Shown here: positions 32,397 to 62,315 of the stretch, piece by piece
Numbering within the stretch: position 1 is the first letter of the stretch
Layout: every line of letters starts with the position of its first letter
IMG/VR virus record: IMGVR_UViG_3300027805_000011
Span: 1 to 64,000 of that record
Origin: a virus
Length of the DNA stretch: 64,000 nt
Strand: one strand, 5' to 3'
Notes under the pieces: generated by a model
The model's input: only the letters and a program-made list of their open reading frames with translations
The model's database searches: none
Told to the model about the DNA's origin: nothing
Translations under genes and position numbers: made by a program

Positions 32397-34979
32397 ATGG
32401 CACGCTCATTCATAGATCCCTCACTCGTAGCGATGGCGGTTGAACCGGCCGCGCCGCCTTGGAACTGGAATCCTGGGGCGACGTTTGTGCAGGCGTTTAA
32501 TGACGCGCAGTCTCTTCAAATCAAGCGGGAAGAGATGGAAAACGAACGGCAGATCATGGAGATCTTGTTGCCATATAAGATCGAAAAAGCGAAGTGGGAT
32601 ATTTCAAATCTCAAAGCTGACGTGAATCTTGCCAAAGCTGTTGAACGGGAGAGAGCGGCTAACGTCAGCTATAAAAATGCGATGGCGGAAGAGATTCGTA
32701 GAGGCCGTGGTCGGGGTAGTAATGCCTCCGCTCAATGGCTTGGGCCGGGTAAAGGTTTCTCATCTGGCTCTACTGGTGGTGACGCCTCTAAATATAACAT
32801 TGATCGATCGGGGCTTCCGGTGGTTGAGCCTGATTTTACGGTGGATGGTGAAGAGCCTTCGGATGAGGAGCCGTGGGATAACGCCAATCCTAATGACTTT
32901 GAAAGGCTTCCAGACTTAGGAAAACCCGTCGAAGATATGCCGGCTGACCCAGTCGAAACGTCTTCCAATAATCCTCTTCGGCCCGAAGACCCGGCGGCAA
33001 TTTTTGCTGATCTCAATACCACTCCGGGTGAGTTGATGCCGCGTCAATCGGAAGGCTGGGCCAATCCTTTGGCGCAGATTGATGAAGACGCCGCGAGTGT
33101 TCCTATCGGAGCACAAAAGTTCGACACGGGGTTGGCTGACACGACGACGCCTTCAAATCTTTCCGAAGACGCCACGGACAGACTAAACCGTATCGTCGGA
33201 CCTGTGCCGGAACAGACCGCGCAAGAGCCGACCAAAGACGAGCAAATTCTCCAGGATGTCCTAGGGCGGTATAAGACTTTGCAGCAGAACCGTAATGCTG
33301 ATTTCGAATCTGCCGCGATGCAGAGCGGACGAGTGGATTTGCGTCCCATAGAAAAATTCTACAAGGACGAGGAACTCGCGCTGTTCCAAGAAGCCGATGC
33401 TGTGGTCACGCCTTTGGTGGCAGGACTATCCCCCGCCGCGCAGGATTCTTACCTCAAGCAAACCACCGCCGCGCGGCCCGTCTTCCCGCTTACCGCCTAC
33501 AACCGCGCTATGGCAATGGACGAAAGATCCAAGGCCAATCCGCCAGCGGAAAATCCGGCTGACCTCTACAAGCAAAAAGAAAGTCTCATCACTGCATACA
33601 ACGCCGAAGGACGCGACATCTACGCCGACCCAGATGGACGGGCAAAATTAAATTCATTAGATAGCCGGATAAAACGTGCGGAAACCGCTTCGGGAACCGA
33701 GTTTCCCTCGGCATGGGATAAGGTCACCGAGACGTTTACCAACGAAGCGTTTCTTGAATCCAAACGCAAGTTGCGTGAACCGGAGTTCAATTACCTAGGT
33801 CGTCAAGTAAACAGCGGAGAGATCGACAAGCTAGTGCAAAATGAAGTGCTGCGGCGCAACGAGCTCCTGACTTCACCGGAGCTCCGGAACCAGCTTCGGG
33901 TGACACGGGACAGCTACACGGTTTACGACAAAAACGATCGCGTGGACCGCGATGCAACCAATGCCGAACGGCAGCGCCAGCTTGCCACATTGGCCCCGAA
34001 CGAACCTTACGAAGCCGAAGACGGTTCGATCAAGACGTGGAGTCCTAGGGCTGAACGTCCGAAGCGGGAAGCAGCAGCCGCCCAACCCAAACCGCTGTCG
34101 CTTGTCGATGAAATCAACCAAGCTGCGGAAGCGGATCGTCGGGACCGCACGGTGCGTAGCTTGCAGCCCAAGTTTGAGCAGAGAAAAGCGGAGCAAGACG
34201 AACGGATTGCAAAAGCTGAACGGCGTCAGAAAATACAGAATCTCAACGGCGAAAAAGCTAGAATCGATAAAGCTGTCCGCGAGTCCGGGCTGGGGGAAGA
34301 CTCTGATGTGATCCAACGGGCTAGGGCGGAGCAAGCGAGGATACAGTCGGAATTGGATAGTCTACAAGGGGAACCTGAAGTTGAATCGCAAGGCAGCAGC
34401 GGGGAAACAAAGAAAGAAACACCTACCCGAATTCAAGGTGGTCTAGACTTCGGCCTAGGAGAAACTATTTCCAAACTCCTAACCCCCGAAGAGTCTTCTG
34501 ATCCAGAAATCCGCGATGAGTTCGCCAAAAACTTCAGTTGGAGGTATGACGGCAAACCACCTAAGATTGTAAAACTCGGGGCCGATCCTTTTTCTAAAGA
34601 TAGTCGAAAATATCTAGACGAAACGTGGCCTGTTCCGGACGGTAAGCCTGAAGGTAAATTCACCCTTCTTAAAGTAAACGGAAATTGGTATGCGGAGGAA
34701 AGAGAGCCTACTTCTCAAAAAAGAAAAATCGTAGAGCGTTTGGCGAGGCGAGCCGAAGATCCTGATGAAGCGCCTAAGTTGAATAATCTAGAGCGGGCAA
34801 TCTTAGAGAAAGAAGGATATTATCAACCTTCTGAAGAGCCGGAATCGCGTCGTCAAGGCGCGGGAGCCGCTAACATGTTGGGTGACGCCGTAAACGCCAT
34901 TTACGGCTGGAAATATGATGGCAGAGAACCTGGCCCTTGGTGGCAGGGATCTCGAATCTACAAGAAACGGGAGCAATAG
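32397..34979 (+). CDS. Large helical internal virion protein
   Basis: 860 residues, charged and mostly coil or helix (DAQSLQIKREEMENERQIMEILLPYKIEKAKWD near the start; KAERRQKIQNLNGEKARIDKAVRESG near residue 605-630), with Pro/Glu-rich linkers. It lies between the Gly-rich protein and the giant protein, the middle position of podovirus ejection proteins. Its last third is more A/T-rich than the neighbouring genes. The first CCTAGG sites of the window appear inside this gene, at 33260. Confidence 0.5.
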   Translation: MARSFIDPSLVAMAVEPAAPPWNWNPGATFVQAFNDAQSLQIKREEMENERQIMEILLPYKIEKAKWDISNLKADVNLAKAVERERAANVSYKNAMAEEIRRGRGRGSNASAQWLGPGKGFSSGSTGGDASKYNIDRSGLPVVEPDFTVDGEEPSDEEPWDNANPNDFERLPDLGKPVEDMPADPVETSSNNPLRPEDPAAIFADLNTTPGELMPRQSEGWANPLAQIDEDAASVPIGAQKFDTGLADTTTPSNLSEDATDRLNRIVGPVPEQTAQEPTKDEQILQDVLGRYKTLQQNRNADFESAAMQSGRVDLRPIEKFYKDEELALFQEADAVVTPLVAGLSPAAQDSYLKQTTAARPVFPLTAYNRAMAMDERSKANPPAENPADLYKQKESLITAYNAEGRDIYADPDGRAKLNSLDSRIKRAETASGTEFPSAWDKVTETFTNEAFLESKRKLREPEFNYLGRQVNSGEIDKLVQNEVLRRNELLTSPELRNQLRVTRDSYTVYDKNDRVDRDATNAERQRQLATLAPNEPYEAEDGSIKTWSPRAERPKREAAAAQPKPLSLVDEINQAAEADRRDRTVRSLQPKFEQRKAEQDERIAKAERRQKIQNLNGEKARIDKAVRESGLGEDSDVIQRARAEQARIQSELDSLQGEPEVESQGSSGETKKETPTRIQGGLDFGLGETISKLLTPEESSDPEIRDEFAKNFSWRYDGKPPKIVKLGADPFSKDSRKYLDETWPVPDGKPEGKFTLLKVNGNWYAEEREPTSQKRKIVERLARRAEDPDEAPKLNNLERAILEKEGYYQPSEEPESRRQGAGAANMLGDAVNAIYGWKYDGREPGPWWQGSRIYKKREQ

Positions 34980-34993
34980 GTAATAACAGCGCA
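34979..34993 (+). promoter_or_regulatory. ATAATAAC motif (GGTAATAAC form)
   Basis: GGTAATAACAGCGCA just after the upstream stop; ATG 35022 is 29 bases further. A TATATTAACGG lies immediately before that ATG as a second candidate. Confidence 0.4.
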
Positions 34994-35021
34994 AGATAAG
35001 CGTTCTGCGCTATATTAACGG

Positions 35022-61516: not shown

Positions 61517-61738
61517 ATGAAAGCCACACTCGAATTCGATCTACCGGAAGAGAACCACGAGCACCAGGACGCCCTCCGGGGCTCCGAATGGAAGTCGGCG
61601 CTGACCGAGGTCGCGGACTACCTCCGGAACCAGATCAAGCACGCTGACAATTCCGCGGAGGAATACCGGACGTTCGAACGAGTCCAAGAGCGGCTTTTCG
61701 GGATCCTCGATGACCGCCGGCTCAATCTCTACGCATGA
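61517..61738 (+). CDS. Conserved phage protein (MKATLEFDLPEE family)
   Basis: 73 residues from ATG 61517: MKATLEFDLPEENHEHQDAL then WKSALTEVADYLRNQIKHADNSAEEYRTFERVQERLFGIL. The KATLEFDLPEE opening followed by LTEVxxxLRNxxKHA is a widespread small phage protein of unknown function, usually near replication or early genes. The upstream extension to 61484 is not needed. It overlaps the following membrane protein gene by 4 bases. Confidence 0.72.
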   Translation: MKATLEFDLPEENHEHQDALRGSEWKSALTEVADYLRNQIKHADNSAEEYRTFERVQERLFGILDDRRLNLYA

Positions 61739-61890
61739 CTTTCTGGCCTTTGCTGATAACGACAATACTTTATCTCATCACCGCGGTCGGCTGGTGGCGC
61801 GAGGGTAATGTAGGACTTGCGATTGCCTTCGCAGGTTACGCCGCCGCGAACGTCGGATTCCTGTATATAGCAGCCATCGGACAGCCCTAA
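61735..61890 (+). CDS. Small membrane protein (51 aa)
   Basis: MTFWPLLITTILYLITAVGW, WREGNVGLAIAFAGYAAAN and VGFLYIAAIGQP give two membrane helices with a charged turn. Coupled by ATGA to the gene before it. It resembles other tiny phage inner-membrane proteins; unknown. Confidence 0.6.
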   Translation: MTFWPLLITTILYLITAVGWWREGNVGLAIAFAGYAAANVGFLYIAAIGQP

Positions 61891-62315
61891 AGGCCCGATT
61901 TCAAGGGAAATCCCTACCAAGTTCCCAGAAGTTCCCTAGGAAGTTCCCACAGTTAAGTCGTTGATTTACTCTATACTTACGTCAAAAGGGAACTTGGGAA
62001 CTTCCCCCTATCTTTTATAGAAAGAAAAATATTATAGGAGGGGACGCCCGTCCCCCCGCGAGCGCGGCCACGTATACTCCCCGCGGGGAGGGCTCTTCCC
62101 CCGAACCCGAGTTCCCAAGTTCCCGTTTGGCCGTAAGCCCTTATCGGTCATCGAGTTAAGTGCGGGAACTTCCTATGGGATTTGGTGGGAACTGGAACTT
62201 CCCTGTTCCCTTTACAGGGAAACACGCTTCATGCGACCGGGTGCAAACACGACCGACGCATAGGAAATGCGCCGTAGTTCAAGCGTCGTTTGAGTTAATA
62301 CCTACTTCGATACTC
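61891..62315. other. Repeat-rich noncoding region, possible replication origin
   Basis: No convincing gene lies here. AAGTTCCC or its complement occurs at 61919, 61929, 61941, 61988, 61996, 62117, 62164, with near copies (GAGTTCCC, GGGAACT, GGAACTTCC) at 62109, 62187 and 62194. Two pairs are directly abutted (61988/61996 and 62109/62117). Between the groups is an A/T-rich block (about 62008-62037) and then G/C palindromes (GGGGACG-CC-CGTCCCC and CTCCCCGCGGGGAG). Iterons flanking an easily melted block beside a primase gene fit a phage origin. It also separates convergent genes. Confidence 0.45.

Follow-up and report, generated by a model that had tools for sequence, protein, structure and literature searches.

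Positions 1 to 64,000 of IMG/VR virus record IMGVR_UViG_3300027805_000011, a phage labelled G000 in what follows, carry an octameric palindrome, YCCTAGGR, whose CCTAGG core occurs 34 times in one part of the stretch and never in the rest of it. These 64,000 bases are the window, the whole stretch of DNA that we analysed; the record itself has 71,476 bases and, as its start sequence recurs at 70,989, is taken as circular with about 70,988 bases. YCCTAGGR is a signal in phages that resembles the highly iterated palindromes (HIPs), a known but unexplained kind of sequence, and the two halves that a first-pass annotation noticed in the window are two ancestries. The account that we consider probable is that a phage lineage has maximised this HIP-like signal and that the window is a recombinant in which rich blocks are set in a motif-free backbone. 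The purpose of HIP1, the best-known case, has been open since the 1990s. The phages described here provide a second HIP setting, unrelated to cyanobacteria, with small genomes, near-complete saturation (46/54 slots of one type in one contig, as defined below) and motif-free sister phages. A natural half-and-half genome, together with a bacterial genus mostly without the motif, makes rich and poor kinds directly comparable, and a single palindrome is maximised in phages from whose genomes many other palindromes are kept away.

Motif counts and codon usage

A machine count places no CCTAGG in 1-33259 and 34 in 33260-61940 (first at 33260, last start at 61935), the CCTAGG-bearing part of the window, which we call the arc (33.3-61.9 kb). 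A 35th copy, at 65645 of the record, lies outside the 64-kb window. The split of 34 to 0 reported by the first-pass annotation is exact, as is the flank bias that it described, with C/T before 30 of the 34 sites and A/G after 33. Among 1852 6-mers tested, CCTAGG is the most asymmetric between the left and right parts (0 vs 34). The chance frequency assumed in that annotation, about one site per 3 kb, was too high: the figure is about 1 per 8-13 kb, and the expectation under an order-2 Markov model is 3.4 CCTAGG for the arc and 3.3 for the remainder. Enrichment on the right stands, at tenfold over the Markov expectation (Poisson p about 1e-22); the proposed depletion on the left does not, since zero sites there is not significant (p = 0.07) and the left is ordinary. 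The enrichment consists of two blocks, with no site in 46030-50893. CCTAGG density is about 1180 per Mb in the arc (34 in 28.7 kb) and 1930 per Mb in a related contig, G027 (81 in 41.9 kb), and in each of the six phages tested called genes have fewer sites per kilobase than the DNA outside them.

The unit under preference is the octamer YCCTAGGR and not the bare hexamer, because the third base of the Gly codon that follows a site is A/G in 15 of 16 cases though C is the commonest (p 4e-6). The preferred form differs by lineage: the relative G014 uses mostly CCCTAGGG, and the arc uses TCCTAGGR and CCCTAGGR.

Two in-frame spellings yield CCTAGG, Pro-Arg (CCT AGG) and C|Leu-Gly (C CTA GG, the first C ending the preceding codon), and each place that allows one of them is a synonymous opportunity, or slot. 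The motif is written at 28 of 55 slots in the two rich blocks and at 1 of 84 elsewhere (Fisher 5e-13). When called genes were shuffled synonymously, the arc gave a mean of 2.04 sites and a maximum of 7 in 300 shuffles, against 28 seen; outside the arc, 1 was seen against a mean of 1.83. Context has the same effect on individual codons. Within the arc, CTA accounts for 16 of the 30 Leu codons in C|Leu-Gly slots, against 7 of 202 in C|Leu-other contexts, and AGG is used in 15 of 33 cases after Pro but in 27 of 651 otherwise. The excess of YCCTAGGR is independent of codon usage, which the synonymous shuffles and context tests rule out as the cause. Both support selection for the motif, as suggested earlier, or else an equivalent process at the level of DNA, and the codon-pair bias of CTA-GGR that was proposed as a check is present in the arc. 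Writing Pro-Arg as CCTAGG lies several changes away from the usual codons, and the Leu-Gly form requires one transversion, so that no single mutation bias makes the motif; because several base changes are needed at Pro-Arg sites, selection is favoured over a one-step bias.

Relatives and mosaic ancestry

Relatives were gathered with the gene at 20111-21286, a putative major capsid gene by its position and size (it had no family match). The search found 51 contigs, in 36 of which the motif was counted; L040 and L081 are one contig. Twelve records with 91-94% identity in the putative capsid protein (clade A) hold 8 CCTAGG in 713 kb, and comparison with expectation puts the clade only mildly under it (0 seen vs 5.5, and 1 vs 5.4). 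G013, at 75% in the same protein, has none, and G015, G016 and G017 have 5, 3 and 2. By contrast with these poor phages, G014 carries 38 CCTAGG in 72.9 kb, genome-wide, the other members of its clade (clade B: G018-G023, G029, G032) carry 12 to 21 per contig, and clade C (the near-identical contigs G025, G026, G027 and G031) reaches 81 in 41.9 kb. In G027, 46/54 C|Leu-Gly and 16/29 Pro-Arg slots are filled, and filling extends along the whole contig (19/27, 17/20, 5/9, 12/13 and 9/14 in successive parts). A tree of the putative capsid protein joins the rich clades B and C in one clade (support 100/99) and groups G000 with clade A, outside them; the rich label requires 4 changes on this tree, 3 of them forced by well-supported branches. 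G032 and G020 share 73% nucleotide identity; from the first to the second 6 of 8 sites are conserved, vs 19% of all hexamers. A wider survey of viral contigs with CCCTAGGG in pairs scored 120 stretches, and 10 contigs were searched whole; no second saturated lineage appeared besides L160, which is G025; L163 and L175 have a moderate excess of the motif. Many other 6-bp palindromes are strongly avoided across the phage family, at 0.20-0.56 of expectation. In G014 most are absent or nearly so, with ACGT at 0, and GTAC has 0 copies in the record of G000.

Identity to clade A was profiled in half-kilobase intervals, the arc being covered mainly by three clade A genomes, and the record divides as follows.

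1..33259: motif-free backbone of clade A type; 0 sites, 0/60 slots filled; long blocks 77-89% identical to G001
33260..46029: motif-rich segment 1; 22 CCTAGG, 22/36 slots filled (33260-46030); sites at 33260, 33794, 34044, 34454, 35429, 36024, 36239, 37574, 38067, 40182, 41117, 41447, 41588, 42285, 42993, 43142, 43454, 45434, 45473, 45650, 46014 and 46024
46030..50460: motif-free interval separating the rich blocks; identity to clade A phages 75-89%; 0/6 slots filled (46031-50893)
50461..61940: motif-rich segment 2; 12 CCTAGG, 6/19 slots filled (50894-61940) plus 6 noncoding sites outside called genes; sites at 50894, 51550, 52991, 54229, 56172, 56772, 58349, 59360, 59806, 60781, 60922 and 61935
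beyond 61940: 1/18 slots filled

Sites coincide with stretches that are not of clade A type: in 33-62 kb, identity to clade A is <75% in 45 intervals, which carry 31 of the 35 sites; 3 more lie in the 13 clade-A-similar intervals of the same region, and 1 beyond it. As far as 45.8 kb, segment 1 has few stretches similar to clade A at the nucleotide level, and it is poor in GTCGAC and TTAA. Within segment 2, at about 54.74-55.49 kb, there is a short site-free piece of clade-A-like sequence, and the segment's final kilobase (61.0-61.9 kb, with site 61935) is clade-A-like again. Composition changes with ancestry, Val-Asp being written GTCGAC in 27/54 cases in the backbone vs 4/26 in the blocks, and TTAA occurring 56 times in 43.2 kb of backbone vs 7 times in 23.3 kb of blocks. 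Nearest relatives and composition thus differ with coinciding edges, as in a mosaic, and we infer that the rich blocks were imported from another lineage.

The genes at the edges and within the blocks are these.

32397..34979, plus strand: gene for an 860-aa protein, holding the left edge; the last slot left unfilled is 33039, the first site 33260
35022..45869, plus strand: giant gene for a 3615-aa protein, 16 sites
45874..46467, plus strand: gene 92% identical in amino acids to clade A G001, with sites 46014 and 46024 within its first 60 codons
50461..52098, minus strand: gene for a 545-aa protein, 2 sites; matches G015 at 54%, and neither G001 nor G005
52331..53716, minus strand: AAA_5 ATPase gene, 1 site; matches G015 at 52%, and neither G001 nor G005
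56807..58012, minus strand: amidoligase-like gene; match in G014 only, of five relatives compared
58085..59146, minus strand: glutamine-amidotransferase-like gene, 1 site; match in G014 only, of five relatives compared

The sharp edge that had been noted inside the gene at 32397 falls between the unfilled slot and the first site, and the 860-aa protein resembles a clade A contig at its N-terminus (37%) and G017 at its C-terminus (58%). The giant 3615-aa protein had no Pfam match. The gene at 45874..46467 may mark the right edge of segment 1, or its sites may be newly gained. The AAA_5 ATPase and its 545-aa neighbour (50461-53716) are found in several clades; the two clade A genomes compared, G001 and G005, gave no match to either. 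The amidoligase-like and glutamine-amidotransferase-like neighbours (56807-59146), which match G014 at 25% and 34%, are a possible pair for peptide or cell-wall modification. Elsewhere in the record, an 883-aa protein at 27418-30069 seems to be made of internal repeats, from offset matches against relatives, and a gene past the window, at 68345-68749, has a nucleotide-modification-associated domain 1 (DUF1599). An integrase gene (phrog_1) at 2764-4083 adjoins the terminase and is kept in 5/5 of the relatives examined, which suggests that the phage is temperate, yet the portal search described below revealed no provirus.

The palindrome in bacterial genomes

Bacterial sequences were scanned for three close copies of CCCTAGGG, giving 116 stretches, of which 80 were scored and the rest judged by density only; 8 genomes were counted whole. 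Many of the stretches had several evenly spaced matches and were taken for repeats. The scan also led to Hymenobacter polaris, whose 5.6 Mb contain 3619 YCCTAGGR, whereas the reversed control occurs 4 times. Among 81 Hymenobacter genomes, three exceed 1100 YCCTAGGR (G051, G079 and G091), three have 125-330 and 75 have 6-79, and site flanks differ from one rich genome to another. The codon signature of the phages recurs there: in 60-kb samples of three rich Hymenobacter, CTA fills 42/87, 72/96 and 35/70 of C|Leu-Gly pairs, vs 6-12% of Leu outside Leu-Gly pairs and 7/116 in seven pooled sister pieces. Only H. polaris exceeded 153 octamers among 395 Bacteroidota genomes sampled, and in 386 cyanobacterial genomes sampled the YCCTAGGR maximum was 766, in 3.3 Mb. 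Two cyanobacteria, G707 and G862, have >5000 copies of the reversed control, RGGATCCY, in about 3 Mb each. These counts fit the GGGATCCC HIP described for two cyanobacteria (Synechococcus strains) in sections of Elhai (2015; PMC4390886), and the counting method therefore detects HIPs.

Searches for the host of the phages found none. The phage portal profile had no match in the bacterial genome contigs, phages or plasmids searched, and the terminase matched only distant phages, at 22-24%. The open-access literature searched held no paper on Hymenobacter with CCTAGG and no relevant one on CCTAGG overrepresented in phage.

Origin of the signal, rival explanations and known systems

We suggest that a motif-maximising lineage would have written YCCTAGGR at a large share of the places that its proteins permit. 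The backbone of G000, with structural and replication genes (1-33.26, about 46.03-50.46 and 62-71 kb), would come from a clade without the signal, and the blocks at 33.26-46.03 and about 50.5-61 kb would descend from a signal-bearing one, so that the sharp edge would be a recombination junction and not the border of a functional domain. Most probably a host-encoded factor, such as a modification enzyme or a repair or nucleoid protein, would read YCCTAGGR, and phages growing in such hosts may gain from many sites. Two points suggest a reader in the host: rich and poor phages are separated by no gene family, and certain bacterial genomes carry the palindrome in iterated form too. As to a phage-encoded reader, none of 332 protein clusters was present in all three rich lineages and missing from the poor ones, clade C being incomplete; the amidoligase and amidotransferase genes belong to families that do not bind DNA and, in this comparison, are shared only by G000 and G014. 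More speculatively, a HIP may exist outside cyanobacteria, shared by this phage family and some Bacteroidota. Phages in HIP-bearing hosts would then be selected to write the octamer at almost all codon pairs that allow it, since a host factor reads the sites (for example, modification density marking self), a genome with few sites would be disadvantaged, and the recombinant would be half-way to such a host. We put this forward tentatively, as a possibility that we do not favour.

Several observations weigh against our account. No close donor of the blocks was found in protein scans: three of them yielded nothing or a single remote relative, a fourth yielded relatives at 27-48% and a fifth two partial relatives; a search with the G027 capsid protein revealed no new lineage. 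Block proteins are not nearest to the rich clades, the giant gene being best matched (53%) by clade A G005 and the proteins of 50461-52098 and 52331-53716 by motif-poor G015, which suggests that the donor was a further motif-rich lineage. Sites 46014 and 46024 lie in a gene of clade A type, as does 65645, in a polymerase 95% identical to clade A, and 61935 falls in a clade-A-like interval. Left of 33 kb, 23 low-identity intervals are free of sites, so low identity to clade A is not enough to predict a site, and the rule is ancestry of the rich blocks. Some clade B pairs keep sites no better than background (G014 to G029, 7/13 vs 0.56; G019 to G020, 1/7 vs 0.17). On the bacterial side, the portal profile had no match in 120 Hymenobacter genomes, and Hymenobacter avoids CGATCG while clade B G014 and G019 do not; for these two reasons the link between phage and Hymenobacter as host is offered as a hypothesis only. 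Finally, of three methyltransferase families tested (PF00145, PF01555 and PF02086), none is common to the three richest Hymenobacter, which lack PF00145 and PF02086 and have PF01555 in 2/3. In phages, PF01555 was found in 0/5 searched, PF02086 in 0/6 and PF00145 in 1/5 (G019).

The same methyltransferase result bears on a serious rival, in which the motif arises by biased mutation or repair in hosts that have the corresponding methyltransferase and brings no benefit of its own. The process would be either methyl-directed repair, on the model of Elhai (2015), or deamination of CCYRGG. Within clade B the partner of an unkept site is often CCTGGG or CCCAGG, YCCCAGGR is also in excess in G014 (41) and G019 (29), though at 0-1 in G020, G027 and the arc, and cyanobacterial HIPs accompany methyltransferases according to parts of PMC4390886. 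However, Pro-Arg sites require several changes, and YCCYRGGR octamers add up to 8 per 74 kb in poor G001 vs 63 per 42 kb in G027, so that conversion of precursors would not suffice; CCYRGG deamination is rejected on this count, suggestive as the partners are. We regard a bias of either sort as rather unlikely. Restriction history alone, with clade A hosts that restrict CCTAGG and donor hosts that do not, is very improbable. The family does avoid many 6-bp palindromes, and these fall below expectation as restriction avoidance predicts, but CCTAGG is tenfold over expectation in the arc, clade A is only mildly under it, and relief alone would give about 3 arc sites, not 34. Of the earlier idea of two modules with different restriction histories, the two ancestries are upheld by the identity profile, GTCGAC and TTAA; the restriction histories by themselves would account for a lack of sites but not for a tenfold excess.

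Two further explanations concern the arc as such. It could be a functional domain in which a phage DNA-binding protein (a repressor, a partition or MatP-like macrodomain protein, or a stoperator-binding one) acts near the convergence of gene blocks at 46.45 kb. The arc is centred near that point in the gene table and a dyad octamer would suit such a protein, yet 46.03-50.46 kb, the centre of the supposed domain, is site-free, G027 is filled end to end and G014 genome-wide, and across three lineages (clade C genomes being incomplete) no gene family is confined to rich phages. Nor does the boundary recur in relatives, a test proposed in the first-pass annotation: neither the 12 clade A records nor G027 or G014 show an arc. 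A domain specific to the arc and the convergence point is rejected on the evidence of G027, G014 and the site-free centre, the filling of G027 along its entire contig likewise speaks against the packaging signal once proposed, or any arc-specific signal, and we consider the functional-domain explanation as a whole improbable. A metagenomic misjoin of two phages would also count against recombination. No second contig was seen to cross the junction; another metagenome yielded a contig piece with 99.97% identity, which spans only 10111-27622. The family gene order nevertheless holds throughout, the 860-aa frame is intact over the edge, and two blocks with a clade-A piece between them would require several misjoins, which makes an assembly chimera a highly improbable explanation.

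The probable reading, a maximised HIP-like signal in a recombinant phage, can be set beside known dispersed sites. Stoperators of cluster A mycobacteriophages are short dispersed sites, asymmetric and oriented with transcription. YCCTAGGR is likewise short and dispersed in a phage; unlike them it is a perfect palindrome with symmetric flank preference, mostly genic and genome-wide in relatives, so the stoperator reading first suggested does not fit, and no repressor was identified among the proteins scanned. matS/MatP and SBS/SlmA involve palindromic sites limited to one arc of a bacterial chromosome, as the sites are in the window; unlike those systems, saturated relatives have no arc, and the window's arc tracks ancestry. 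Cluster O mycobacteriophages, according to passages of PMC4351075, carry 34 copies of a 17-bp palindromic repeat of unknown function. There too 34 palindromes lie in a phage, denser rightward and about a third of them genic, but the repeat is a longer, nearly invariant 7-3-7 inverted repeat, many copies are intergenic, and it is not a codon-saturating octamer.

The closest parallel is with HIP1 (GCGATCGC) and the alternate HIPs of cyanobacteria, which reach 500-2500 per Mb and which a methyltransferase and methyl-directed repair are proposed to create, possibly without benefit (sections of Elhai 2015, PMC4390886). Set against that account, YCCTAGGR is also a GC-rich palindromic oligomer, found in coding and noncoding DNA far beyond codon and amino-acid usage, and replaced or absent in close relatives; the arc (34 in 28.7 kb), G027 (81 in 41.9 kb) and G014 (38 in 72.9 kb) all fall within the density range. 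Excess is genome-wide in clades B and C and in G000 confined to two blocks. Unlike HIP1 as described there, YCCTAGGR has a CTAG core, no matching methyltransferase was found for it in the families tested, and it occurs in phages and some Hymenobacter and in segments of one genome.

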